The notes below the pieces were generated by a model. That model was not told where the DNA came from. It saw only the letters and a list, made by a program, of their open reading frames with translations, and did no database searches. From positions 62,001 to 126,000 of the forward strand of contig JAOZIE010000023.1 in the NCBI GenBank assembly GCA_026014485.1: 64,000 bases of DNA, given 5' to 3'. Shown here in pieces: positions 16,842 to 28,764 of this stretch (position 1 is its first letter; each line of letters opens with the position of its first letter). Source of the stretch: Candidatus Bathyarchaeota archaeon (GTDB lineage Archaea > Thermoproteota > Bathyarchaeia > Bathyarchaeales > Bathycorpusculaceae). A program made the translations under genes and the position numbers.

Positions 16842-19800
16842 TTAGCCGAAGTCGAAGAGACTGGTCTGCTTGGGCTTGTTGTTGTCAAACATCGAGTGAA
16901 GCTCCTCCTTAATCAGAACAAGCCGCTGAGTATAGTAGTTGGGGAGGTTGTACTTGTTGACCAGTTCCTGTGCTGCATCAAGGTACTTTTCGATGCCGCC
17001 ACGGTAAACTGTGAGCGTCAAGGCGCCCCCGCAGAAACATTTGCCATTTAAGGGCAGACGACGAAATTTCCTGTTGCAGGATTTGCATCGGAAGGCTTGA
17101 GTTGAGAAAGCGCGTAGGTTACCTGAAATGTCTCTGAGGAAATGTTTAGTCAGAACCTTTAGCGCTACGTTTCGGACATCCACAGCGTCGATTCTTTCAC
17201 CCAACGCCATCTGCAGGTGAAGCTTTTCCACCATTGATTTGAAGAGTTTGTAGCTGCTTTCAGAGTTGCCCATGCTTATGTCGGAAACGGGCGTGGTGTA
17301 GTTGAAGCCTTCAAACTGCGCCTCGGTGCCAAGCCTGTGGCTGATTAGATCCATTATTGGCCGTATCTGTTTGGCTTCGGCCTTTTCCAGCGTTTTGTCG
17401 TAGAACTCACGTGAGTACACCGCGTCCACATCGCAGTCGTGTGCTTGCCTTTGCACCTCTTTGGTGTTGACGAAGGGAATGACTAGTATGGGGGCGTCCA
17501 TTATGCCGCCTATCTGCGCGGGCAAGTAGCGGAAAGAGAAGTTAAGGAGGGTATCCATTGCCAGCATAATGGCGTCTTCGTCGCCGTCGCAGTCCCTGCG
17601 TTTAGCCGAGTGCCAAAGCGGATGGGCATAAATCACCTTCAAGTTTGTGAAGCCGACAACCCGCCCCAAAATGCCCACGCAGGTGTGTGGAGCCAACCCG
17701 AAGATAAGTTGCCCCACCATTTCTTGAGGACTTTTGACGTTGTAATAGCTGGGTAACTTGTACACCTTAGTTAAGAGCTCGTCAATGAAGCCCGCTATCT
17801 GAACAAAGTATTCTGCAGCATTCCAAGGTATAACGACGTCTTGCACTTTAAGCTCCAGAACTTGGTCTGGATCAGTAAGGGGCACACCGTAAATGTCATG
17901 TGTGTAGCCAAGTTGCCGAAGCTTCTCTACAGGCACGTCAACTTCGCCAGGTTTGATGTGAGTCAGCGGCGCGTTTGTACCGTCAAAACGGATTGTTCCG
18001 TCTTTGTAAACCGACAGGTCATATTTAGCCCGCAGGATGCCCTTTTCAATTATTTCAGGGGTTTTGTCCTCGTTGGTTAAGCCTTTGACCCCCCGAAGCA
18101 GCTTGGGCGCCGCAACACCCAAATTACGCAAGGCACTATCCACCAACTCTTTGAAGTTGATTGTTTGCCTCTGGTAGGGCACGGCATCGGCTTTGCATGT
18201 TGAGCAGCCCGTCTCCTTTAGGGGTTTGCCACAGCGGGGGCAACTTTTCTCGTAAACGGTTTCACAGTCGCATTCAGCACATTTCACCCTGAAAGTGTAA
18301 GTTTTGCAGATGGGGCATTTGCGTTTAACCAACTCGATGAACGCGGGACCTTTTCGTCCTGCCTCTATCAGGTCACGGTGGGAACCCCCTGCCAAGCCGA
18401 CGGGAAAAAGCATATGCACCAGCGGCCTCATTTCTCGCCGTTTAGCTTTTTCAGGGCGCCCCATACGCGCACCAACAAACGTGGGAGCCTTATCCCGCAC
18501 TTCGACACCTGAAAGCGCAGTCAGTACTTTGAAAACCGCTTCCGCTGGAACCTCAGCTGCCGACGTTTCGGTGCCATAGCCCAGGGAGAAAGCTAAAGCG
18601 CAAGCATCTTCGCCGTCAAGGGTTATTTTGTCTTCTGCAACTTTGTGGGGAGCAAAAATCTTTCGCAGAACCTGAGCTGTTTCCTGAGTGTGTTCGCCTT
18701 CGATTCGGGTGGCAAAGCCGCCTTCAAGAGCCACGTTCGCGTTTGAAAGCCAAGTTCTCAGCAGTTGGAGGTCGCAGGTTGAGGAAAGGTTGGACCAGAA
18801 AAAAGTGAACCTCGGATGCAATGGCACCTGCAAAGTTTGCGAGAGGGTAATTGCTTGTTTAGCGGTGAGTTCGGCTTTGAAAGGGTCGAGAAGTAATTGC
18901 TCCAGCGCGGCTGGCTGGAAGTTCACGGCGTGGGCAGCTTTCTGCAAGTCTCCCCCGAACTGTGCCTTAACTGCTGCGTTTAGGTCTTTTACCCACCATT
19001 CTTCCACGTAACCTGACGGAGAAAGAGCCTTGTTGCAGTAGAGAAAATCGCCAAAGCTAATCAGCATGTCGCCCAAGAACAGAATTTTCTCCACTTTGCC
19101 CTTTACGCTGCTGAAGTTTTCTAGGGTAACCTTGACCACGGAGCCGTCTTTGAGCAGAACAACTGGCGGCTCAAGCGAATCCACGGGAACGGTTACGCCG
19201 CCTTTCCCTGGAAGTTCCAGACGCACTTGCGTGCCAGCAGCCAAGAAACTCTCCAGCACCAGCATGGTTGCAGGATGAATGCCCACTGCTGAGAGCCCAG
19301 TGTTTCGGGACCTGCCATACCTCAGCCTAAAGCCTCCTCGGCGTGAGGGAAAAGCGAAAATGGGACGCCCAGCGATAACGTCATCCATGAAGCCCGCAGA
19401 TTTCTTTTCAGATTTCTTTTTGAATTCCCTTAGCCAATCCCATCCTTGGAAGCCAAGTTTCTCGACGATAATGTGCACTTTGAGGGCTCGTCCCACGATG
19501 CCGTCGTTGACGACTCGGAGGGCGCCGCCTCGGACACGGTTGGTTTCTATGCGGGGCAGGTTTCGGTACGAGGATACTTCTATAGGGTCAGATTCGGTAC
19601 CTGTAACCTCGATGGGTAAATAGTCAAAAGCTTTCTTGATTTCCGCGTCAGGGATGTGATATTGGAAGCGCCCCACTGACCGCTCATACGAACGCAGTTC
19701 CTCTATGAAGCGGGCAACCTCCTCTGGCGTCGGCTTGTAGCGGTCCAAGTCAAGCAAACGCCGAACAAAATCCCCCACCACCAAGGTCAAGGCTTGGTCT

Positions 19801-20255
19801 GTGCCGCCAGCCGACCTTATGGGTCCAGCAAAGTAGATGGCAAGGTAACGGGAGCGGTCAAGGTTAGCTTTGATTTTTACTTGTGCCACGCCTTGGATTG
19901 GGGCGGCGGTTAAGCCTTCAGTGAAAATCGCCAGCGCCGTACGGATAGCCTGTTCAGCCGCTTTCTCAGGCTCCATCTCCCCAAATTTGCCTGTGACTAT
20001 TTGTTCAGCTATTTTGAAGGCAATTTCTTCTCTGCCAATTTTTGTGCTTAACTCGCGGATGCTGGCTGCCACGCCTTTTGGACCCACAAGACCCTGAACG
20101 AGGTCGGCTATGTCTTGGGCAATTATGCTTTCAACTTTTAAGGCGGGGTCTAAGCCTTTTTGGCGGGCGCTTTCGCTGATTGCGTATAGTCTGCTCAGTT
20201 CGCTGCCCATAGAATCCACGTAGCTGCGGTAGGCAGCGCTCATCTTGCTGGTCAC
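16842..20255 (-). CDS. polC: DNA polymerase D large subunit DP2
   Basis: The 1137-residue protein is the catalytic subunit of PolD, the archaeal replicative polymerase. It has the N-terminal SRYLAIYFAGPIRSAGGTDQ block, two double-psi barrel regions, a zinc-ribbon cluster (CPICKTYTFRVKCAECDC, then CPRCGKPLKETGCSTC, about 625-665), the catalytic DCDGDEDAIML loop (about 890), and a C-terminal CKSC...CFCGG zinc site that contacts DP1. The last residues KQTSLFDFG form a PCNA-interacting PIP-box-like motif. No intein interrupts the catalytic loop. Its partner DP1 is at 27193-28764. Confidence 0.97.
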   Translation of the reverse strand: MTSKMSAAYRSYVDSMGSELSRLYAISESARQKGLDPALKVESIIAQDIADLVQGLVGPKGVAASIRELSTKIGREEIAFKIAEQIVTGKFGEMEPEKAAEQAIRTALAIFTEGLTAAPIQGVAQVKIKANLDRSRYLAIYFAGPIRSAGGTDQALTLVVGDFVRRLLDLDRYKPTPEEVARFIEELRSYERSVGRFQYHIPDAEIKKAFDYLPIEVTGTESDPIEVSSYRNLPRIETNRVRGGALRVVNDGIVGRALKVHIIVEKLGFQGWDWLREFKKKSEKKSAGFMDDVIAGRPIFAFPSRRGGFRLRYGRSRNTGLSAVGIHPATMLVLESFLAAGTQVRLELPGKGGVTVPVDSLEPPVVLLKDGSVVKVTLENFSSVKGKVEKILFLGDMLISFGDFLYCNKALSPSGYVEEWWVKDLNAAVKAQFGGDLQKAAHAVNFQPAALEQLLLDPFKAELTAKQAITLSQTLQVPLHPRFTFFWSNLSSTCDLQLLRTWLSNANVALEGGFATRIEGEHTQETAQVLRKIFAPHKVAEDKITLDGEDACALAFSLGYGTETSAAEVPAEAVFKVLTALSGVEVRDKAPTFVGARMGRPEKAKRREMRPLVHMLFPVGLAGGSHRDLIEAGRKGPAFIELVKRKCPICKTYTFRVKCAECDCETVYEKSCPRCGKPLKETGCSTCKADAVPYQRQTINFKELVDSALRNLGVAAPKLLRGVKGLTNEDKTPEIIEKGILRAKYDLSVYKDGTIRFDGTNAPLTHIKPGEVDVPVEKLRQLGYTHDIYGVPLTDPDQVLELKVQDVVIPWNAAEYFVQIAGFIDELLTKVYKLPSYYNVKSPQEMVGQLIFGLAPHTCVGILGRVVGFTNLKVIYAHPLWHSAKRRDCDGDEDAIMLAMDTLLNFSFRYLPAQIGGIMDAPILVIPFVNTKEVQRQAHDCDVDAVYSREFYDKTLEKAEAKQIRPIMDLISHRLGTEAQFEGFNYTTPVSDISMGNSESSYKLFKSMVEKLHLQMALGERIDAVDVRNVALKVLTKHFLRDISGNLRAFSTQAFRCKSCNRKFRRLPLNGKCFCGGALTLTVYRGGIEKYLDAAQELVNKYNLPNYYTQRLVLIKEELHSMFDNNKPKQTSLFDFG

Positions 20256-20370
20256 GCGCGGCGTCCCCTCAATCAGTGTGGAAACAGCATCTATTTTGGC
20301 TTTCTAACATAAAGCAAAAGAAAACACCTTTCTGAGAAAGGCTACTTACACTCAGAAAACGCAAACGGGA

Positions 20371-20631
20371 TCAGGAACCTTTCAAAGGCACAGACCTTCG
20401 TGAGGCACCATATATTTTGTCTGTGAACATGCAGTAAACATCAACTTCGCCATGTGAGGGCTTAATGGGAAATTCTTCCTGAAGCCCACAGCTACTGCAG
20501 CCTGCAATGGCGCGGGCTTCCTCACGTAGGATGTCTACGCGAACCGTTTCTTTTCCGCATCTTGGGCAGGAGAAGAACTTTGGTAGACGTTTCTTAGGTA
20601 TGTGAATTACTTTCTTTCTTCTTCGGCCCAT
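20371..20631 (-). CDS. elf1: Transcription elongation factor Elf1-like zinc-ribbon protein
   Basis: The 86-residue protein begins MGRRRKKVIHIPKKRLPK and has one zinc ribbon: CPRCGKE and CSSCGLQ, then VDVYCMFTDKIYG. This is the Elf1 family, which binds RNA polymerase near the downstream DNA and aids elongation. It has GAGG 9 bases upstream of its ATG and shares the TTAAATA promoter region at 20680-20688 with the divergent NAD synthetase gene. Confidence 0.88.
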   Translation of the reverse strand: MGRRRKKVIHIPKKRLPKFFSCPRCGKETVRVDILREEARAIAGCSSCGLQEEFPIKPSHGEVDVYCMFTDKIYGASRRSVPLKGS

Positions 20632-20679
20632 CTTGGCTTCCTCTGGGTGGTTTACCCTTTTTTAGTATCTATGCTTGCC

Positions 20680-20688
20680 CTTAAATAC
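20680..20688. promoter_or_regulatory. Symmetrical TATA element between elf1 and nadE
   Basis: CTTAAATAC reads as a TATA box on both strands. On the minus strand it lies about 50 bases from the Elf1 ATG; on the plus strand about 40 bases from the GTG at 20725. This distance is one reason for choosing GTG 20725 as the NadE start. Confidence 0.45.
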
Positions 20689-20724
20689 TTGCCTACAACC
20701 ATAAAAAGATGGAAGCGTGAGGAA

Positions 20725-21567
20725 GTGGAGCTTAAACCAACAGCTCTGGAAGTAAACCTATCCGACGTGGCAACCAGAATCCAGCGGTTCATCCGAACCT
20801 ACGTCGAAAACGCTGGAGTCAAAGGGGTAGTCTGTGGGATGTCGGGAGGAATCGACAGCAACACGATAGCGGCGCTCTCCGCATTAGCCATAGGCGGAGA
20901 AAACGTTTTGGGGCTTATGCTGCCTGAGAAAGAAACATACAATCCTAAAGACATAGAAGACGCCAAGACCGTAGCAGACATATTCGGCATCCAAACCCAA
21001 ATCTGTGACATCACGGCGCCGTTGGAAGGCTTCTATGAGTCAATTCCAATTTTTGATCCAAAAGAAAAACTCAGCAAGGGCAACATTAAAGCCAGAACCA
21101 GAATGATTTACCTCTACTATCACGCCAACAAGCTTAATCGACTCGTGTGTGGTAGCAGCGACAAGTCTGAAACCATGATGGGGTACTTCACCAAGTGGGG
21201 AGACGCCGCCGCTGATATAGCGCCGATATTGGATTTGTACAAGACACAAGTTCGTAAGCTCGCCGTGCACATAGGCATTCCATCGGACTTGGCAGAGAAA
21301 CCGTCAACACCTGCCCTGTGGCGCAACCAGTCTGCGGAGGGGGAACTCGGAATCAAATATGAGGTACTGGATCTTGTTCTGTTTGGGCTTGAACGGTTCA
21401 TGGCATCTAAAGAGATAGCAGAACAGGTAGGCTTGGAGGAAAGTCAAGTTGAGAAAATCAAGAAAAGGTGGCTTGCCGTTGAGCATAAAAGGCGGTTGCC
21501 CTTGTCGCCCAAACTTGAGTACAGAACGGTAGGAACCGACTTCAGGTTGCCGCACAGCATATATTAA
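20725..21567 (+). CDS. nadE: NAD+ synthetase
   Basis: From GTG 20725 the product is 280 residues (MELKPTALEVNLSDVATRIQ...), a normal N-terminus for NH3-dependent NAD synthetase; the frame is open further upstream to 20602 but that part overlaps elf1 and the promoter. SGGIDS (40-45) is the PP-loop that adenylates deamido-NAD. GSSDKSE, KWGDAAADIAPILDLYKTQV and KPSTPALWRNQSAEGELG are further family motifs. A GTGAGGAA ribosome-binding sequence directly precedes the start. It is followed after 14 bases by a nitrilase-type amidohydrolase that may supply ammonia. Confidence 0.93.
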   Translation: MELKPTALEVNLSDVATRIQRFIRTYVENAGVKGVVCGMSGGIDSNTIAALSALAIGGENVLGLMLPEKETYNPKDIEDAKTVADIFGIQTQICDITAPLEGFYESIPIFDPKEKLSKGNIKARTRMIYLYYHANKLNRLVCGSSDKSETMMGYFTKWGDAAADIAPILDLYKTQVRKLAVHIGIPSDLAEKPSTPALWRNQSAEGELGIKYEVLDLVLFGLERFMASKEIAEQVGLEESQVEKIKKRWLAVEHKRRLPLSPKLEYRTVGTDFRLPHSIY

Positions 21568-21581
21568 CAGAAGGAAAGCAC

Positions 21582-22415
21582 ATGAAAGAGAAAATAAAAA
21601 TTGCCTTAGCCCAAATCAGTAGCAGACGCGAAGACAAAAAAAGAAACCTCGCAAAAATTGAACAATATACCATAAGGGCAAAGGAGCAGGGAGCGGATCT
21701 TGTGATTTTTCCTGAGCTTTCCCTCACAGGCTATGTTGTTAGAGACCAGATTTATGAGCTAGCGGAAACGATACCGGGACCTTCAACTCGGAAACTGGAG
21801 CAGCTCGCAAAAGAGACAGGTATGTACATCATTTTTGGTATGCCAGAGCTAAGCGAAAAAACGAAGGCAACAGTATGCAACACTTCAGTTTTCATAGGTC
21901 CTGAGGGAATAATTGGTAAGTACCGCAAAATGTATTTGCCAACTCACAGTGTATTTGAAGAGAAAAGGTATTTCCGACCAGGATATCAAGCCGTAGCCTT
22001 TGACACCGCCATCGGAAAAATTGGGTTGTGTATATGCTATGACATCTTTTTCCCAGAAGTGACCCGTCTCACCCGTTTGCTTGGAGCGCAATTGGTTGTG
22101 TACATATCTGCATCTCCCGCCGTCCGCAGAAGCTACTTTGAAATCCTCACTGCAGCAAGAGCTTTGGAAAACACGGCTTACCTTGCGTATGTTAACCTTG
22201 TCGGAGTGGAGGATGGGCTGCAGTTTTGGGGGGGAAGCCGACTGGTGAGTCCAGCTGGCGAAGTTCTTGCTAAGGCTAAGTATGATGAGGAAGACTTTGT
22301 CATGTGTGAGGTTGACTTTGAAGACCTTAAGCCTGCGGAAACGTTTATCCCGACGCTTAGGGACTTGCGTCCTGAACTATTTGACGAGTTAAAGAAAAGC
22401 TCGGAACGCCTATAA
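21582..22415 (+). CDS. Nitrilase-superfamily carbon-nitrogen hydrolase
   Basis: The 277-residue protein has the full Glu-Lys-Cys triad: FPELSLTGY (Glu45), KYRKMYLP (Lys116) and CICYDIFFPE (Cys152). The superfamily hydrolyses amides or nitriles. It is separated from nadE by only 14 bases and the pair ends in a strong hairpin, so they are one operon. In many organisms a nitrilase domain is fused to NadE as its glutaminase; here the two parts may be separate subunits of a glutamine-dependent enzyme. An unrelated amidase role is also possible. Confidence 0.88.
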   Translation: MKEKIKIALAQISSRREDKKRNLAKIEQYTIRAKEQGADLVIFPELSLTGYVVRDQIYELAETIPGPSTRKLEQLAKETGMYIIFGMPELSEKTKATVCNTSVFIGPEGIIGKYRKMYLPTHSVFEEKRYFRPGYQAVAFDTAIGKIGLCICYDIFFPEVTRLTRLLGAQLVVYISASPAVRRSYFEILTAARALENTAYLAYVNLVGVEDGLQFWGGSRLVSPAGEVLAKAKYDEEDFVMCEVDFEDLKPAETFIPTLRDLRPELFDELKKSSERL

Positions 22416-22435
22416 GCAGACTTGGAAGCAAGTGA

Positions 22436-22452
22436 CCCCCTCTTTTAGGGGG
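22436..22452 (+). terminator. G/C hairpin ending the nadE-nitrilase operon
   Basis: CCCCCT-CTTTT-AGGGGG forms a perfect 6-bp stem with a 5-base loop, 20 bases after the nitrilase stop codon. No long U-tract follows, so it may act as a 3' stabiliser or a terminator. Confidence 0.55.
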
Positions 22453-22488
22453 CATATGAGAGTTAGGATGGCAAGTTGTGTGGTTGCG

Positions 22489-22520
22489 TCACAAATCACA
22501 ACTACATCACATCACTGTGA
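22489..22520. repeat. Cluster of TCAC/GTGA half-sites
   Basis: TCAC occurs at 22489, 22496, 22507 and 22512, then GTGA at 22517. The 22496-to-22507 spacing is again 11 bases. The same TCAC core is found in the two phased arrays nearby, so these look like extra half-sites for the same DNA-binding protein. Confidence 0.5.
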
Positions 22521-22547
22521 CATCATATGTTTTGTTGGAAGTCACGT

Positions 22548-22580
22548 GTGATTTAGCCGTGATTCCGCTGTGATTTAATG
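22548..22580 (-). repeat. Phased 11-bp repeat array A (three units)
   Basis: GTGATT occurs at 22548, 22559 and 22570, exactly 11 bases apart. On the minus strand the units read AAATCACAGCG, GAATCACGGCT and AAATCACACGT, the same consensus as array B at 23757 but in the opposite orientation. The 11-base period puts each unit on nearly the same face of the helix, typical of cooperative operators, iterons or centromere-like sites. Confidence 0.7.
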
Positions 22581-22586
22581 GAATCG

Positions 22587-22596
22587 GTGACGTCAC
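22587..22596. promoter_or_regulatory. Perfect palindrome GTGACGTCAC
   Basis: A perfect 10-bp palindrome made of two inverted GTGAC halves, 17 bases from the last unit of array A. A near copy, GTGACGTCAT, is at 23674-23683. It may be a symmetrical form of the same binding site. Confidence 0.5.
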
Positions 22597-22935
22597 GAGA
22601 CTTTTTGGTGGGGTTTTTTGGATAAAATGTGAAGGCGCCATAAAAGGGAAAAAGCGTGTTTTTGTTGTTTGATTGGGTGTTTGAGGGAATATAGTTGAGG
22701 GAAATTATGTGAATTGGCTGCAGCAGTTGCTTTTTGTTAACAGATATGAGTCTAAGTGTGCCTATAATGCCCAAAGCGGCGCGGTTAAAAATGGCTAATT
22801 TGAAGCTGAAAACGCAATATAAGGACGATTTAATCCCTGAAGGTTAAAGTAAGTAATTAATCACCATAATATCCCATATAAGGTTGTTTTCAAGGGGCAT
22901 TATTGTGTTTTTTGGGCTTAAAAGGTCGATACCGC

Positions 22936-22943
22936 TTTTATAA
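22936..22943 (+). promoter_or_regulatory. TATA box for the gene at 22998
   Basis: TTTTATAA lies about 58 bases upstream of the TTG at 22998, giving a predicted leader of about 30 bases that contains the GAGG ribosome-binding site at 22985-22988. Confidence 0.45.
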
Positions 22944-22997
22944 CACGAGCCAGTATACAAAACCGTATCCATTCAGCATATCGCGAGGAACGTAAGA

Positions 22998-23477
22998 TTG
23001 AAGCTCAAAGAAGGCGTACAATTGTGGCTAAACGGAGCATTAAACGACCCCGTTGTCAAAATTCTGACCAAAAATAGCCAATTGACACGAACACAGCTTG
23101 AAACGCTGCTAATAGACGTTTTAGCTGAGAATATGGCAGGCAAACAGTTAAAATACGACGAAAAAGCCAGATTACGCTTAACAAAGGCCAAAATAAGCCG
23201 CGGATCCTTCAACAGGACATTAAAACAGTCTAAAGAAAACGTCATAAAATCAATCTACACAGTACTGCTCCTAGGATATTTAGGAGTCTTTGAGACCACA
23301 ACTCTTGACCCATACCTCGAAATAGCCAATAAATTGAAGGAGTATATGGAAGCACACGAGGACCTCCCAGACAACCTAGAGGGGGTACAAGAGCACCTAA
23401 AAGTCATAGAAATCATCAGAGAAGAGCTAGAAATGAGCCTAAAACGGCTTTCTAGCCCATCAGAGGACAGGCTGTGA
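22998..23477 (+). CDS. Conserved-looking small protein, putative DNA-binding, between phased arrays
   Basis: The 159-residue product starts at TTG 22998, 9 bases after GAGG. It is largely helical and charged. The part ISRGSFNRTLKQSKENVIKSIYTVLLLGYLGVFE (about 70-105) could be a helix-turn-helix followed by a hydrophobic helix; the C-terminal third (about 110-150) is a probable long helix or coiled coil. No signal peptide is seen. I do not recognise the family. It lies alone between the two 11-bp arrays and upstream of the membrane winged-helix gene, so a role in recognising those repeats is a reasonable guess only. Confidence 0.65.
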   Translation: MKLKEGVQLWLNGALNDPVVKILTKNSQLTRTQLETLLIDVLAENMAGKQLKYDEKARLRLTKAKISRGSFNRTLKQSKENVIKSIYTVLLLGYLGVFETTTLDPYLEIANKLKEYMEAHEDLPDNLEGVQEHLKVIEIIREELEMSLKRLSSPSEDRL

Positions 23478-23673
23478 CATCACAAATCACAAAAAGCACA
23501 TAAAAAACGCGGCAAATTCACAAGAAAAAACCAGCATTCAAGCAGGTCAAAAAGCAGCAAACTATCACCAAGATTTACAGAGATCTTGCTAAAAGAAGCC
23601 TAAATCTAACCTATTCTAAACATAGGCACCACTCCAAAGTAGAGGGATAAAGAAAGAGTCAAACTTGTGATGT

Positions 23674-23683
23674 GTGACGTCAT
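23674..23683. promoter_or_regulatory. Near-palindrome GTGACGTCAT
   Basis: Nine of ten bases match the perfect palindrome GTGACGTCAC at 22587-22596. It is part of the longer GTGATGTGTGACGTCAT cluster upstream of the gene at 23810. Confidence 0.4.
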
Positions 23684-23756
23684 AGCAAGGCAGGGCGTAG
23701 TACACCATAAACCTTAAATTTTCCATGGAGAACTGTGATGTGTGATGCAACACAAT

Positions 23757-23800
23757 AAGTCACGCCTAAATCACATCCAAATCACAGGCAAATCACAGAG
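23757..23800 (+). repeat. Phased 11-bp repeat array B (four units)
   Basis: Four tandem 11-base units start at 23757, 23768, 23779 and 23790: AAGTCACGCCT, AAATCACATCC, AAATCACAGGC and AAATCACAGAG. The core AARTCAC is fixed and the last three or four bases vary, as in operator or iteron arrays. The array ends 9 bases before the ATG of the membrane winged-helix gene and overlaps its GAGG ribosome-binding site, so protein bound here should block transcription or translation of that gene. Confidence 0.75.
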
Positions 23801-23809
23801 GCAGACTAG

Positions 23810-24616
23810 ATGATAGACATCATCACCTTGGCGATTGTAGGGACGCTGCTAGGTGTTCTGGCGGCAGTCACCACGTACGCAGCAATCCAATATTACAAGC
23901 AGCTAAGTAGAGCACAAAAGGAATACGAAAAAGCCCGAGATTTTGTGGAGGACATCGTGCTTAGTTTTAACCGGGAACTGAAAAGGGAAGCTGAAAGGAT
24001 ACAAACAGTAGTTTACAAAGTAGAAGTCAACGCATCCAAAGCAGATGCTGGGCGCAGGATAGCTGAAAGTGTGGAAAAAAGGGTTGGGCCCATTGAAAGC
24101 CAAATCAATGAGATAAACGCCAAAGTTGACGCCATAGACACAGCAGTCAGCGACATCTCAGAGGTTAATGCAAAAGCCATCAAGGAACTATCTACTGTAG
24201 ACGTGACAGGTGTAGGCACTAAGCTTCAAGATATCGAAACATCACAGGAAACTTTGAGAACAAAGATAACTCAGCTAGAAGAACAATTACAAAAATTAAC
24301 TTCAATTCCTGAAGGAAAAGTAGAGACACCTCTGCCAGTTATGCCTGTAATGCCCATTAAACGAGACAAAGCAATGGCATCATTAACAGAAACCGAAGTT
24401 GCAGTTTTGGAGTTTCTTTCTTCAGAGGGCCCAAAATCGGCGCCTGAAATTAAAGAGAAAGTGCAACTCAGCAGAGAACACACGGCAAGGCTCATGAAGA
24501 AGCTCTACGAGGAAGGCTACTTGGAAAGGGAAACGGGAAAGTTACCCTTCAAATACAGCATAAAAAAGGAAATGGAAAAGCTCCTAAGGAAACCCGAAAC
24601 CGCACCACCACTTTAA
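23810..24616 (+). CDS. Membrane-anchored coiled-coil protein with C-terminal winged helix
   Basis: The 268-residue product has three parts. An N-terminal membrane helix (IITLAIVGTLLGVLAAVTTYAAI written here in part: LAIVGTLLGVLAAVTTYAA, about 7-25). A long charged coiled coil (about 30-165) with heptad-like runs such as VEKRVGPIESQINEINAKV and LRTKITQLEEQLQKL. After a Pro-rich linker, a winged helix-turn-helix (about 190-255) with LTETEVAVLEFLSSEGPKS, APEIKEKVQLSREHTARLMKKL and YEEGYLERETGKLPFKY, the MarR/ArsR-type arrangement. It could tether DNA to the membrane. The 11-bp array B runs into its start, so autoregulation is likely. Family not recognised. Confidence 0.8.
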   Translation: MIDIITLAIVGTLLGVLAAVTTYAAIQYYKQLSRAQKEYEKARDFVEDIVLSFNRELKREAERIQTVVYKVEVNASKADAGRRIAESVEKRVGPIESQINEINAKVDAIDTAVSDISEVNAKAIKELSTVDVTGVGTKLQDIETSQETLRTKITQLEEQLQKLTSIPEGKVETPLPVMPVMPIKRDKAMASLTETEVAVLEFLSSEGPKSAPEIKEKVQLSREHTARLMKKLYEEGYLERETGKLPFKYSIKKEMEKLLRKPETAPPL

Positions 24617-24683
24617 GGGCTATAGACTGCACCGAGCAATAATGAACACATCGACCAAGCAAAAAAATTCCTTTGTTGTGGGT

Positions 24684-25115
24684 CTACTTAAGTTTCTGTT
24701 TTATCACAGCTTGTGGAGTAACAGAGGAAACTTTGTACTTTAAGTTGTTAGCGCCGCCATTTCTTATGAGGAAACCTTTGCTGGTCATCCGTGAAAGATA
24801 AGTTGACACCGTACTCAACGTTATGGGTTCCTTAAGTTCCTGCTCGTAAAAAGACTGAATGTCTTTAGAGGTGAACCAGACCAGAGGAAAATTCTTCTGC
24901 ACAACCCCGCGAACCTTTTCAAACCGTGAAGCACCACCTACTGCTTGTGGGGTAGTTGTAACAGAACTGGGGTTTTCTCCAGGCATACCGCCCAGCAGCT
25001 CGACCAGGTCTAAAAGCCGTAAAGCCTTATCTCTAGTTATTTGCCCTTCAAAGGCAACAGTGTATCGATTGCCTTCACTATCGAATAGCTCCACACGCAT
25101 TTTCCGAGCTGGCAT
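24684..25115 (-). CDS. Winged-helix protein next to the replication origin
   Basis: The 143-residue product has a short strand-rich N-terminal domain (MRVELFDSEGNRYTVAFEGQ), a helix (TRDKALRLLDLVELLGG), a Ser/Thr-Pro linker (about 48-62), then a winged helix-turn-helix (about 68-130) with FTSKDIQSFYEQEL, LSTVSTYLSRMTSKGFL and LKYKVSS. It is soluble. It is convergent with the membrane winged-helix gene and transcribed away from the origin. I do not know its target; position suggests a role at the origin or in regulating nearby genes. Confidence 0.78.
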   Translation of the reverse strand: MPARKMRVELFDSEGNRYTVAFEGQITRDKALRLLDLVELLGGMPGENPSSVTTTPQAVGGASRFEKVRGVVQKNFPLVWFTSKDIQSFYEQELKEPITLSTVSTYLSRMTSKGFLIRNGGANNLKYKVSSVTPQAVIKQKLK

Positions 25116-25312
25116 CTACGGTATACACCTTTAGAGGCGTTCACAACTTTACACTTCACACCTAATAGCTGTTATGGTGAAAAACAAAAAATTTTAAACG
25201 TTAAAAACAAGCTCATTTCTAAAAATAAGCAAATATTGCAGCCATTAGGCTATTACAAGGTTCACAAGATTTTAGAAACGTAAACAGATTTATGAAACAG
25301 CTTGATTCGCAA

Positions 25313-25336
25313 TTTCCAGTAGAAGCATAGGGGTGT
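25313..25336 (+). promoter_or_regulatory. Origin recognition box 1 (ORB-like)
   Basis: The element reads TTTCCAGTAGAAG, then a 4-base AT-rich spacer, then GGGGTGT. It shares the TTCCAGTAGAAG left part and G-string right part with ORB3, and matches the known archaeal ORB style (TTCCAGTGGAAAC ... GGGG). Orc1/Cdc6 binds such sites with its winged helix and AAA+ insertion. Confidence 0.78.
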
Positions 25337-25574
25337 CTGTTTCACTGTAAATAAACAAGAAAATAGCCTTTTAAAGAAAAAAGACGCTATTAAGGAGACA
25401 TTTAAAGATAGAATTCACATGGTATTCACAAAATTGTGAAGTAAAGAGGCTAAAAAAGAAAGAGTATAATATTGTTAAATGCCTCCACGGCGAATCTTGA
25501 GTATAAGCTACTTTTCTTAACAGTAAATTAATTGGTTATTATGGTGTTTAATTGAAGTTTCATGTTGATGAGGC

Positions 25575-25598
25575 ACACCCCTTCATTTCCTCTCCAAG
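25575..25598 (-). promoter_or_regulatory. Origin recognition box 2 (ORB-like, inverted)
   Basis: On the minus strand it reads CTTGGAGAGGAAATGAA followed by GGGGTGT. The GGGGTG is at the same distance as in ORB1 and ORB3 and the central AG.GAA agrees, but the left CCAGT is degenerate. Its orientation is opposite to ORB3, as expected for boxes flanking an unwinding element. Confidence 0.65.
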
Positions 25599-25635
25599 AA
25601 ATTTCAGTAAACAGCCACGCTTTAGGGAGACAAAA

Positions 25636-25760
25636 AAAATTTGGAGTTCTCTCGTCTAATTTCTTTAACAATCATTATTAATATAGAACAAAGAATGTTA
25701 AGTCACAGAGTATTATTCTTCTATATCTATATCTTACATATACTCACAAGAGTATTACTG
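25636..25760. other. AT-rich candidate duplex-unwinding element
   Basis: This stretch between ORB2 and ORB3 is almost all A/T, with runs such as TTAACAATCATTATTAATATAG and TCTATATCTATATC (positions about 25665-25735). Such regions melt first at archaeal origins. A short hydrophobic frame across it is an artefact of the T-rich sequence. Confidence 0.55.
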
Positions 25761-25761
25761 A

Positions 25762-25785
25762 GTTCCAGTAGAAGTTTTGGGGTGC
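25762..25785 (+). promoter_or_regulatory. Origin recognition box 3 (ORB-like)
   Basis: It reads GTTCCAGTAGAAG, spacer TTTT, GGGGTGC. It is identical to ORB1 over TTCCAGTAGAAG and GGGGTG with the same spacing. It lies 170 bases upstream of the orc1/cdc6 start and may also take part in its autoregulation. Confidence 0.78.
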
Positions 25786-25881
25786 GTGCGTTGAAGTTAA
25801 TATGCTTATCACCAAGAGTTTTTATCCTGTTTTAGGATTATTCAGCTTCAAAACTACTTTTCTGTACTGTAGCCTTTATCT

Positions 25882-25902
25882 GTTCCACCCGAAATAACGG
25901 TG
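25882..25902 (+). promoter_or_regulatory. Degenerate mini-ORB near the orc1/cdc6 start
   Basis: GTTCCACCCGAAATAACGGTG keeps TTCCA, GAAA and a GGTG end at about the ORB spacing, but only partly matches the three better boxes. It is 30 bases before the initiator ATG. Confidence 0.35.
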
Positions 25903-25931
25903 TAGCCTCTGAAAACAGTTGGGGAAAGAGA

Positions 25932-27179
25932 ATGGGCAATCCAAACATACTCGACGATGTATTCGAAAAATTCGTTAACGAAGCAAAACTATTCAAAGAC
26001 AGAGAAGTCTTAAGGCACGATTACTTACCAGATAAACTTCCCCACCGCGAAGAACAGATACGCCTACTAGGACAATCAGTGGCTCCAGTTCTGAAAGGCT
26101 CCCGATGCTCAAACATCTTTATCTACGGAAAAACAGGCACAGGAAAAACTGCAGTAACAAAATTTGTTCTCAGCCATCTTGAATCCAAAGCTAAAGAATA
26201 TGGTGCACCCGTAAAATTCTGTTATGTAAACTGCAGAATGACTGGCTCAGAATATCGCGTCTTTGCTAGCCTAAGCCAAAGTTTAGGATTATCCATACCC
26301 TTTACTGGTTTGTCTGTGGGCGAGGTTTTTGATAGGTTCCGAGTAGGTTTAGAAAACACCCGAACAATATTCATTATAATTCTTGATGAGATAGATGCGT
26401 TAATCAAAGAACGTGGCGACAGTATCCTCTATGAGTTAACCCGAATTAACGAAGCCTTACAAAAGAGCAAAGTCGCACTCATAGGTATATCCAATGACCT
26501 TCGTCTCAAAGAATTCCTCGACCCAAGAGTCTTAAGCTCACTCAGCGAAGAAGAACTAGTTTTTCGACCATATGATGCTGCAGAACTCAGGAACATACTT
26601 CTTGAGCGGTCAAGACTCGGCTTCTTTGAGGGTACACTTTCAGAATCCGCATTAAGCATTTGCTCAGCTTTGGCAGCAGCTGAACACGGCGATGCACGTC
26701 GCGCTTTGGATTTGTTGAGGGTAGCTGGAGAAGTTGCTGAGCGACATGGTGAAGCCAAAGTCACTGAAGACCATGTACGTGAGGCTGAAAAACACATTGA
26801 ACACAATAAGGTTGTAGACGCCCTCAAGAATTCTACGCTACACTCTAAACTTGTGCTGTTAAGTGTTTACCACTTAAGCAAGGCAAGCAGCAACGCTACA
26901 ACTGGAGAAATATACGACATATATAGTGAACTCTGCGGAGAAACAGGTTCCAGTCTCCTAACCCAAAGACGCCTCGGAACACTCATAAACGAACTCGACG
27001 CCTTGGGGCTGCTAAACTCCAAAGTGGTAAGTATGGGACGCTATGGACGCACCAAAAAAATACGTCTAGAGATCTCTCGTTCCATGGTAAAAGAAGTCTT
27101 TAGCGCCGACGATAGGCTGGAAAAACTCATAAAGTACGAACCAAAACTTCTTTCAAAAAATCTGCGTACCTCCCACTAG
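25932..27179 (+). CDS. cdc6: Replication initiator Orc1/Cdc6
   Basis: The 415-residue AAA+ protein has Walker A GKTGTGKT (66-73), Walker B IIILDEIDAL (about 145), sensor 1 ALIGISND, the arginine-containing sensor 2 region EHGDARRALDLLRVAGE, and a C-terminal winged helix (about 305-400). It binds ORB elements and loads MCM. An upstream AAAGAG precedes the ATG. It lies directly after the predicted origin, as is usual for archaeal initiators, and converges on the PolD small subunit gene with a 13-base gap. Confidence 0.96.
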   Translation: MGNPNILDDVFEKFVNEAKLFKDREVLRHDYLPDKLPHREEQIRLLGQSVAPVLKGSRCSNIFIYGKTGTGKTAVTKFVLSHLESKAKEYGAPVKFCYVNCRMTGSEYRVFASLSQSLGLSIPFTGLSVGEVFDRFRVGLENTRTIFIIILDEIDALIKERGDSILYELTRINEALQKSKVALIGISNDLRLKEFLDPRVLSSLSEEELVFRPYDAAELRNILLERSRLGFFEGTLSESALSICSALAAAEHGDARRALDLLRVAGEVAERHGEAKVTEDHVREAEKHIEHNKVVDALKNSTLHSKLVLLSVYHLSKASSNATTGEIYDIYSELCGETGSSLLTQRRLGTLINELDALGLLNSKVVSMGRYGRTKKIRLEISRSMVKEVFSADDRLEKLIKYEPKLLSKNLRTSH

Positions 27180-27192
27180 GGGTCGTTGTTCT

Positions 27193-28764
27193 TTAAAGAA
27201 ACGAAAGTACCTTGGTTTCCATAGTCTGCAGGTTAACTACAGGCACTTTGCCTGGTGTAGGAACCAAACCCAACTTTGCCATGTAATCTGTCTGTTCCTG
27301 CCAGCCACCTGAATTCACAACTAAGACACCCCGATGGTTACACATACCTAAAACATGAATGTGTCCTGCGTGAAAAATATCTGGAACCCTATCTATAACC
27401 AGAAAATCTCGGTTTTCAGGTGACAAAGTGGTTTTTCCGCCGTAAATAGGCGCCAAATGGCGTCCTTGCAAGAACAGCTTCATAGCCTTCTCAGGGTGTT
27501 CATGGTCTGTGCCCGGAACGGACCCGATAATATCGTCCAAGCTGCGTCCATGGTACATTAGGACTTCTACGCCGTGCAGGCTGACTGTACATGGGTTTCC
27601 CAAAGAGTAGATTCTTCTGGACCCTTGCAGCGTAGGCAGATACTCTTCAGATATAGCAGGTTGGGGTAGCGCTTTTCTGGGTGCATCATGGTTGCCTGGT
27701 GAAACTACGATTTCTATATGTTCAGGTAAGCGTGAAAGCGCTCTTGCCGCCATCTTGTATTGTTTGTGTACATCTCGGATGTTGAGCTCTAAGGCTTGTC
27801 CAGGGAAAACTCCCACTCCGTCAACTACGTCTCCTGCAACAAGGCAGTACTTCACGTGGCCAGCGATTTCTCTCATGCGTTCGTTTCCGTACTGCCCGTT
27901 TAGCCACTGCAGAAACCGTTTGAAAGCTTCTTTACTGAATTTGTTGCTGCCGATGTGTATGTCTGAGGTTAGCACAGCGTAAACGGGTTCCGAAGCTCTA
28001 CGCATTGGTTTCTGCCCCACCTCTGGAAAAATAATGTCCTCTGCCATGAACAGTCGACCTCTAGTTTTGACCACTGCTACACAAATGACTTGGTCTGGCA
28101 GGAGCATCTGCGCTTTTTTTTGGACTTCCTCTGGAGCTTTGGTTGGTACAAGTATGGTGGCGGTTGCGTTGAGGTCTTCGATGGTTACCAGCAGCTGCTG
28201 TTTGGCTTCCCGTTTCTCAGTGACCATACCAATGATTTTTAGTTTTGCCTTCGCCTGAGACTTGAGCGCTTCCGAAATGGGCGTAGCCGCTCTTAAATCC
28301 ATTCTTTGCCTAAGAAGCTTCTCCATACGTTTGAACCTGTCTTGGAAGTAATGGAGAAAATCTTCCATAGACCCGTTAGAGCTGAGTTTTCCTGTGGGGT
28401 CTTCCAACACGTTGATTTCTGATTCCACATCTTTTGCGTAAGGCCTAAATGGGCTGTTAGCTTCGGGATATTGCCTTGGCTTTTCTTGTTGCAGCGGCTC
28501 GTGGGCTGCCGGTTCAGATGTGAAATCTGCTTGAGGTTCTGTTTCAGCTTCGGGTTCTTGCAGAACTGACTCTAGAAGGTTTTTGCAAATGAAGAAGGGT
28601 TTTTCCTCTAAGCATTCGATTTTCTGTAACGCTTTGGACATTACGTCGGTGGGGTCATCTACGGCAGAAATTGTGGTGAGGAACTCAAAGGCATCTTTGT
28701 CCATCTGGTATCCTGCAGCAATGGTGATTTCTACAGCCTTTTGAAGCCTTCCCTGTTCCCTCAT
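27193..28764 (-). CDS. polB: DNA polymerase D small subunit DP1
   Basis: The 523-residue protein has an N-terminal helical domain (1-70), a low-complexity acidic/Pro linker (about 70-115), an OB-fold (about 165-260; LKIIGMVTEKREAKQQLLVTIED), and an Mre11-like calcineurin phosphoesterase domain with TSDIHIGS, AGDVVDGVGV, VSPGNHDAPR, YHGRSLDD and HAGHIHVLG. These metal ligands are complete, so the 3'-5' proofreading nuclease should be active, unlike the eukaryotic B-subunits. It pairs with DP2 (16842-20255). Confidence 0.96.
   Translation of the reverse strand: MREQGRLQKAVEITIAAGYQMDKDAFEFLTTISAVDDPTDVMSKALQKIECLEEKPFFICKNLLESVLQEPEAETEPQADFTSEPAAHEPLQQEKPRQYPEANSPFRPYAKDVESEINVLEDPTGKLSSNGSMEDFLHYFQDRFKRMEKLLRQRMDLRAATPISEALKSQAKAKLKIIGMVTEKREAKQQLLVTIEDLNATATILVPTKAPEEVQKKAQMLLPDQVICVAVVKTRGRLFMAEDIIFPEVGQKPMRRASEPVYAVLTSDIHIGSNKFSKEAFKRFLQWLNGQYGNERMREIAGHVKYCLVAGDVVDGVGVFPGQALELNIRDVHKQYKMAARALSRLPEHIEIVVSPGNHDAPRKALPQPAISEEYLPTLQGSRRIYSLGNPCTVSLHGVEVLMYHGRSLDDIIGSVPGTDHEHPEKAMKLFLQGRHLAPIYGGKTTLSPENRDFLVIDRVPDIFHAGHIHVLGMCNHRGVLVVNSGGWQEQTDYMAKLGLVPTPGKVPVVNLQTMETKVLSFL

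Follow-up and report, generated by a model that had tools for sequence, protein, structure and literature searches.

In the plasmid partition systems ParR/parC (plasmid R1) and TubR/tubC, arrays of approximately 11- to 12-bp repeats beside the operon promoter serve both as centromere and as operator of the autorepressor. TubR is a winged-helix protein, and centromere-binding proteins usually repress their own gene. For most archaea outside the Sulfolobales, we know of no established mechanism of chromosome segregation or positioning.

In the Sulfolobales, the DNA-binding protein of SegAB has clusters of sites close to its own genes and to oriC1, and hints of membrane association have been described (PMC12284271); the SegAB mechanism is described as not understood (PMC7617429). 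RocS of Streptococcus pneumoniae has been proposed to tether DNA to the membrane for segregation, with no energy-driven motor involved (PMC11500499).

The window analysed here is a stretch of 64,000 nucleotides of archaeal DNA, whose closest named relatives are Candidatus Bathyarchaeota genomes. It contains the following features around a predicted replication origin:

16842–20255: PolD subunit gene DP2
22489–22596: site cluster 1, with 11 or more TCAC/GTGA half-sites, among them the minus-strand array and GTGACGTCAC at 22587
22953–22970, no strand assigned: palindrome GTATACA-N4-TGTATAC, here GTATACAAAACCGTATCC
22998–23477, plus strand: gene 22998 (TTG start), encoding a small all-alpha protein of 159 aa that is conserved
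23474–23491: site cluster 2, composite GTGACATCACAAATCACA, overlapping and running past the stop codon of the small gene 22998
23667–23684: site cluster 3, GTGATGTGTGACGTCATA
23713–23722, plus strand: probable BRE/TATA-type promoter of the winged-helix gene 23810, CTTAAATTTT, inferred
23735–23796: site cluster 4, GTGATGTGTGATG and the plus-strand 11-bp array, covering the inferred transcriptional start site and leader of gene 23810
23810–24616, plus strand: gene 23810, encoding a putative winged-helix protein of 268 aa with membrane anchor and coiled coil, which is proposed to bind clusters 1–4
24684–25115, minus strand: gene 24684, second winged-helix-like protein (143 aa), between the pair 22998–23810 and oriC, syntenic in 20 of 20 relatives
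25116–25931, no strand assigned: probable oriC, with ORB-like repeats at 25314–25335 and 25763–25784 and a set of TTCACA sites
25932–27179, plus strand: orc1/cdc6 replication initiator gene (Cdc6_C, 2.9e-26; Cdc6_lid, 2.4e-24)
27193–28764: PolD subunit gene DP1

By analogy, RocS appears to be the closest functional counterpart of the 23810 module. Like the 23810 protein, RocS and the staphylococcal pSK1 Par protein unite a DNA-binding domain, a coiled coil and a membrane anchor in one polypeptide and have no NTPase. A further hallmark of this class is a segregation defect upon loss of the protein. The order of the parts is reversed, however: RocS has an N-terminal DNA-binding domain, DUF536 and a C-terminal amphipathic helix, whereas the 23810 protein has an N-terminal transmembrane segment and a C-terminal MarR-like winged helix, and DUF536 was not among the Pfam matches listed for it. 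Unlike RocS, the 23810 module is archaeal, has a site cluster beside its own gene and includes an extra small protein. The likeness to ParMRC and TubZRC lies in the 11-bp arrays at 22548–22573 and 23757–23796, with strict triples limited to 3 of the 33 genera of the family and looser spacing elsewhere. In contrast to ParR/parC and TubR/tubC, the module is chromosomal, carries no actin- or tubulin-like motor and has its membrane anchor within the DNA-binding protein. Among the neighbours between 20.4 and 30.0 kb, we found neither an actin- or tubulin-like filament NTPase of the ParM/TubZ type nor a ParA-type Walker ATPase, the sole P-loop protein being Cdc6. A ParB HTH/CTPase or a ribbon-helix-helix centromere binder was not found either, the 23810 protein being a MarR/HTH_27 winged helix and the 22998 protein matching nothing.

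Fold comparison (Foldseek) matched the 23810 protein to MarR regulators and to AspA of the Sulfolobus plasmid pNOB8, a winged-helix centromere binder from the Thermoproteota. AspA differs in being soluble and acting with ParB-like and ParA proteins, and MarR regulators match the 23810 protein equally well or better. SegAB resembles the module in that the sites of its DNA-binding protein are clustered close to the segAB genes and the origin, but SegB is not a winged-helix transmembrane protein, SegA is a ParA-type ATPase, and SegB sites are found chromosome-wide instead of at one locus. The ArnR/ArnR1-type transmembrane regulators also join an archaeal DNA-binding domain to a transmembrane segment (PMC10269533, PMC6396743); compared with these, the 23810 protein has no known target genes, is linked to an origin and combines an extended coiled coil with numerous sites at a single locus. 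In a literature search that was thin on subscription papers, no description of the gene pair or its sites was found. Since defining features of ParABS, SegAB, ParMRC/TubZRC and RocS were not recovered here, the module is described as a DNA-binding protein with a site array near an origin, and there is a real chance that it is distinct from the known partition systems.

A first-pass annotation of this DNA had reported two arrays of AARTCAC units exactly 11 bases apart. Both arrays, with three units on the minus and four on the plus strand, were recovered at exact spacing, but the middle minus-strand unit reads GAATCAC and departs from the motif. The plus-strand units are AAGTCAC, AAATCAC, AAATCAC and AAATCAC, with TCAC at 23760, 23771, 23782 and 23793; on the minus strand, GTGA occurs at 22548, 22559 and 22570. 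The additional TCAC/GTGA half-sites that had been noted between 22489 and 23747 were located at 22489–22596, 23474–23491, 23667–23684 and 23735–23746. Both arrays belong to a set of four ATCACA half-site clusters, which surround genes 22998 and 23810 and together span approximately 1.3 kb. Cluster 1 precedes the small gene by about 450 bp, and cluster 2 precedes the winged-helix gene by about 320 bp. The window contained three phased TCAC triples, compared with a mean of 0.013 expected from 300 dinucleotide-preserving shuffles, and its densest 350 bp held 14 half-sites compared with a shuffle maximum of 12. Genome-wide statements were obtained by pattern searches of the genome. In the whole 2.37-Mb genome (G000, 26 contigs), TCAC-N7-TCAC-N7-TCAC matched the two arrays only (three overlapping matches).

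The comparisons covered a family set of 91 genomes (33 genera) and a phylum set of 299 genomes (Thermoproteota). At 75 loci, the stretch between the small and the winged-helix gene contained 904 half-sites, compared with 151 in shuffles, with the consensus A-N-ATCACA and an A at position −1 in 74%. Family-wide, the commonest same-strand step was 7 bp (218 cases), followed by 10–12 bp (145) and 21–23 bp (80); in 86 cases, GTGA and TCAC formed a palindrome whose two half-sites start at a distance of 6 bp. The favoured layouts are the palindrome GTGAYRTCAC and direct repeats at 7, 10–12 and 21–23 bp. Since steps other than 11 bp are common, the phasing on one face of the DNA that had been proposed is limited to the two arrays and does not describe the cluster as a whole; exact 11-bp phasing is one part of a richer site grammar.

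The sites are confined to this locus to a high degree. The composite site GTGAYRTCACNNNTCACA was present in 80 of the 91 family genomes, and all copies (98 of 98) lay within 1.5 kb of the small gene; for the 11-bp triples, 55 of 57 matches in these genomes fell at the 22998–23810 locus. Across the 299 phylum genomes, the composite site was found at the locus in order-level relatives carrying the pair and in one further family (G136), with only four strays away from the module, and the cluster 2 composite keeps its position in other families too. In alignments of relatives, the clusters stand out as invariant islands amid an otherwise fast-changing spacer. Cluster 1, which in relatives lies approximately 400–620 bp upstream of the small gene, forms invariant islands in an alignment of nine sequences, while the spacer of about 370 bp to gene 22998 is poorly conserved. 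At the position of cluster 3, the sequence GTGATGTGTGAYRTCAT was near-invariant in a comparison of 20 genera. Between 22600 and 22950, a noncoding stretch of several hundred base pairs is retained in many relatives with hardly any conservation of sequence and with no Rfam match.

The gene neighbourhood is conserved as well. In 20 relatives, mostly of different genera, the order was the same: PolD large subunit, Elf1-like, NadE, usually a CN-hydrolase, 22998, 23810, 24684, cdc6, PolD small subunit and, where the contig reaches, PhoU. A further 80 loci agreed wherever the contig was long enough. Each genus examined showed synteny of the pair with cdc6 and the genes for both PolD subunits, and the winged-helix gene followed the small gene directly on the same strand in 105 of the 108 phylum genomes that have both. 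Loss of the repeats from close relatives that keep the same genes, named in the first-pass annotation as an outcome that would refute its reading, was not observed: the sites are kept across the family and the order, always beside the same genes and cdc6. In families that we take to be ammonia-oxidiser-like, the sites are looser and lie partly within coding sequence. As separate observations, DP2, DP1, Elf1, NadE and cdc6 form one conserved string around the origin (16842–28764 here) in all Bathyarchaeia genera examined; family f25 has GTGATATCAC and GTGACGTCA sites within the coding sequences of both pair genes (L172, L173; G105:C1:711553, G137:C1:109897); and in f16 genomes GTGATR repeats fall at the 3′ end of the coding sequence of the small gene. 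Such sites may have been selected either for the DNA itself or for the encoded protein.

The 23810 protein matches MarR/HTH_27 at residues 192–243. Its AlphaFold model (pLDDT 87) consists of a helix at 2–129, a second helix at 132–163 and, after a loose linker, the winged helix at the C-terminus (183–259); from alpha-helix geometry, the first helix would be about 19 nm long. An N-terminal transmembrane-like segment was present in 74 of 74 homologues and in the distant ones examined, and the recognition region SREHTARLMKKLYEEGYLER of the winged helix is near-invariant among homologues.

These properties can be combined into a model in which clusters 1–4 would form a multi-site binding platform for the 23810 protein. 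Held in the membrane by its N-terminal helix, the protein would dimerise along its long coiled coil, and its cytoplasmic MarR-like winged helix would read ATCACA half-sites arranged as GTGAYRTCAC palindromes and as 7- and 11-bp direct repeats. Filling of the four clusters over 1.3 kb beside oriC would tie the origin region to the membrane, in the manner of a centromere or attachment site, and the protein sitting on the array over its own promoter and leader would also repress its own gene. A membrane-fixed rod of some tens of nanometres, a DNA reader and at least 14 half-sites by the origin are, according to the predicted structure, what such a tether would need. Clusters 1 and 2 are far from the winged-helix promoter, and simple archaeal repression would presumably not need them. 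Since cluster 4 lies over the inferred transcriptional start site and leader of gene 23810, the protein probably represses itself as well, in the way known from plasmid centromere systems.

Membrane tethering of the origin region combined with self-repression is the best overall explanation at hand, to which we give an even chance. For its parts, self-repression by the 23810 protein is probable, and tethering has an even chance of being its main function. The first-pass annotation had suggested a new origin-linked segregation or anchoring system. This suggestion is supported in part: given the origin linkage and the predicted membrane anchor, a role in anchoring or segregation is reasonable, but the neighbourhood encodes no NTPase partner and the promoter-proximal array also looks like the operator of an autorepressor. 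With somewhat less than even confidence, we suggest an unrecognised archaeal system for attachment of the chromosome origin, with centromere-like clusters at a single locus, a membrane-anchored coiled-coil winged-helix binder and no NTPase motor, present in much of the Thermoproteota. If true, this would be a direct molecular form of the origin–membrane attachment of the replicon model. The conserved origin-linked pair with its dedicated site cluster is a concrete candidate for such attachment, and the module extends to groups with cultured members if the families taken as ammonia oxidisers are such.

The main rival to a tether is plain autoregulation by a membrane-bound transcription factor. 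The 23810 protein would then be a single-pass transmembrane regulator responding to a signal from the membrane or from outside the cell; its only targets would be its own gene and perhaps that of the small protein, with clusters 1–3 as looping or auxiliary operators. Its predicted combination of a transmembrane segment and a DNA-binding domain is that of transmembrane transcription regulators, which are common in archaea with about four per genome (PMC10269533); Sulfolobus, for instance, has membrane-bound activators of the ArnR type (PMC6396743). The array over the inferred start site and leader is what plain autorepression predicts, and the CTTAAAT-like core of the promoter at 23713 is kept in aligned relatives. 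With no off-locus sites, no wider regulon is indicated. On the other hand, it would be unusual for a regulator of itself only to be kept by cdc6 across most of the phylum, an archaeal operator typically has fewer sites than the 14 or more half-sites spread here over 1.3 kb, and the predicted structure shows no conserved sensor domain in the 23810 protein, only the coiled coil. We consider autoregulation as the whole function possible but doubtful.

A role in replication control, with iteron-like clusters that set origin firing by sequestration or handcuffing and the 23810 protein as a membrane-bound regulator of Cdc6 access, is unlikely. It would fit the distance of 1.5–3 kb between the clusters and the ORB repeats, the conserved string of genes that includes cdc6 and those of both PolD subunits, and the related TTCACA sites within oriC, some of which are 11 bp apart. 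However, the clusters (ATCACA) show no match to the ORB-type repeat (TTCCAGTRGAA...GGGG), and the ORB-like repeats are separate, at 25314 and 25763; the pattern was derived from these two copies, and similar repeats adjoin cdc6 in relatives. Furthermore, the clusters track the pair and not cdc6 across an insertion of approximately 2.6 kb or a separation of 14–33 kb. The pair adjoins cdc6 in Bathyarchaeia and in G354, G281, G267 and G136, but is not adjacent to it in families f21 and f25. The two lie 14 kb apart in the closed genome G105; for G097 and G113 the distance is 32–33 kb, and for G156 approximately 150 kb. Proximity to cdc6 is thus usual and adjacency is not obligatory; the lack of adjacency in f21 and f25 and the distance in G156 also count against the tether model, as do the looser sites of the ammonia-oxidiser-like families.

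TTCACA half-sites are also found in oriC and the promoter of gene 24684 (25141–25439), with TCAC at 25141, 25156, 25262, 25342, 25415 and 25426 and GTGA at 25177 and 25436. Among 182 oriC half-sites, 91% have a T at position −1 (TTCACA), and a conserved pair 11 bp apart (25415, 25426) is accompanied by an inverted partner at 25436. Their positions are shared by 20 relatives, and the sites also occur in genomes that have no 23810 homologue. The 24684 protein, which has weak similarity to Penicillinase_R and Cdc6_C, is likely the natural candidate for their reader, that is, an uncharacterised oriC-binding factor. Binding of the 23810 protein to oriC itself is unsupported: the sites there are TTCACA, not ATCACA, and independent of a 23810 homologue, so that direct contact is not indicated.

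The distribution of sites points to the 23810 protein as the reader of the ATCACA clusters. At loci with the winged-helix gene, half-sites were usually enriched (z up to 8) and accompanied by GTGAYRTCA palindromes, whereas the clear winged-helix-negative loci (G115, G131, G284, G265 and G167) had z values of about 1 or less and no such palindromes. In G115 and G131, gene order is retained for the small gene, cdc6 and a homologue of 24684, but a 23810 homologue is missing and half-sites are not enriched; both genomes retain the GTATACA palindrome and the TTCACA sites. G237 has no 23810 homologue and yet shows a weak half-site excess (z about 2). In G270, the downstream end is lost to a contig break and clusters are still present, so that this genome is uninformative on the binder. 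Since clusters are missing from small-gene loci without the winged-helix gene, the 23810 protein is the likely binder, and judged by this co-occurrence, with few clear gap lineages, it very probably binds the ATCACA clusters. That the 22998 or the 24684 protein does so instead is highly unlikely. Both genes are adjacent and conserved, the 22998 protein has a helix-turn-helix-like stretch, and the oriC half-site TTCACA is ATCACA with one flanking base changed; but in G115 and G131 both homologues are present, the 23810 gene is absent and ATCACA clusters do not occur.

Chance or low complexity as the source of the repeats was ruled out by the shuffles and genome-wide counts, a dispersed regulon or parS-like scatter by the composite-site, array and stray counts, ORB or iteron sites of Cdc6 by the mismatch to ORBs, and no structured RNA was matched by Rfam in 20000–27500.

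The small gene 22998 has homologues in 81 of the 91 family genomes and 128 of the 299 phylum genomes, and its product is among the best conserved of the neighbourhood (mean column identity 73–78%). Its AlphaFold model is all-helical (pLDDT 81); the protein has no Pfam or NCBIfam match and no PDB match by sequence or fold. With the helix-turn-helix-like stretch SRGAFNRTLKQA, spotted by eye, it is possibly a DNA-binding protein. Approximately 45 bp upstream of the small gene, the GTATACA palindrome occurs in every aligned Bathyarchaeia locus and is recognisable phylum-wide; in 74 of the 91 family genomes it is present exactly once per genome. It is also found at loci without the winged-helix gene and tracks the small gene, and the simplest reading of this pattern is that it belongs to the small gene, via its own product or another factor. 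A contig labelled Heimdallarchaeota (L156, JAEOTE010000074.1) also has a small gene of the Bathyarchaeia type (51% identity) next to an Elf1-like gene, possibly due to mis-binning or to a wider distribution.
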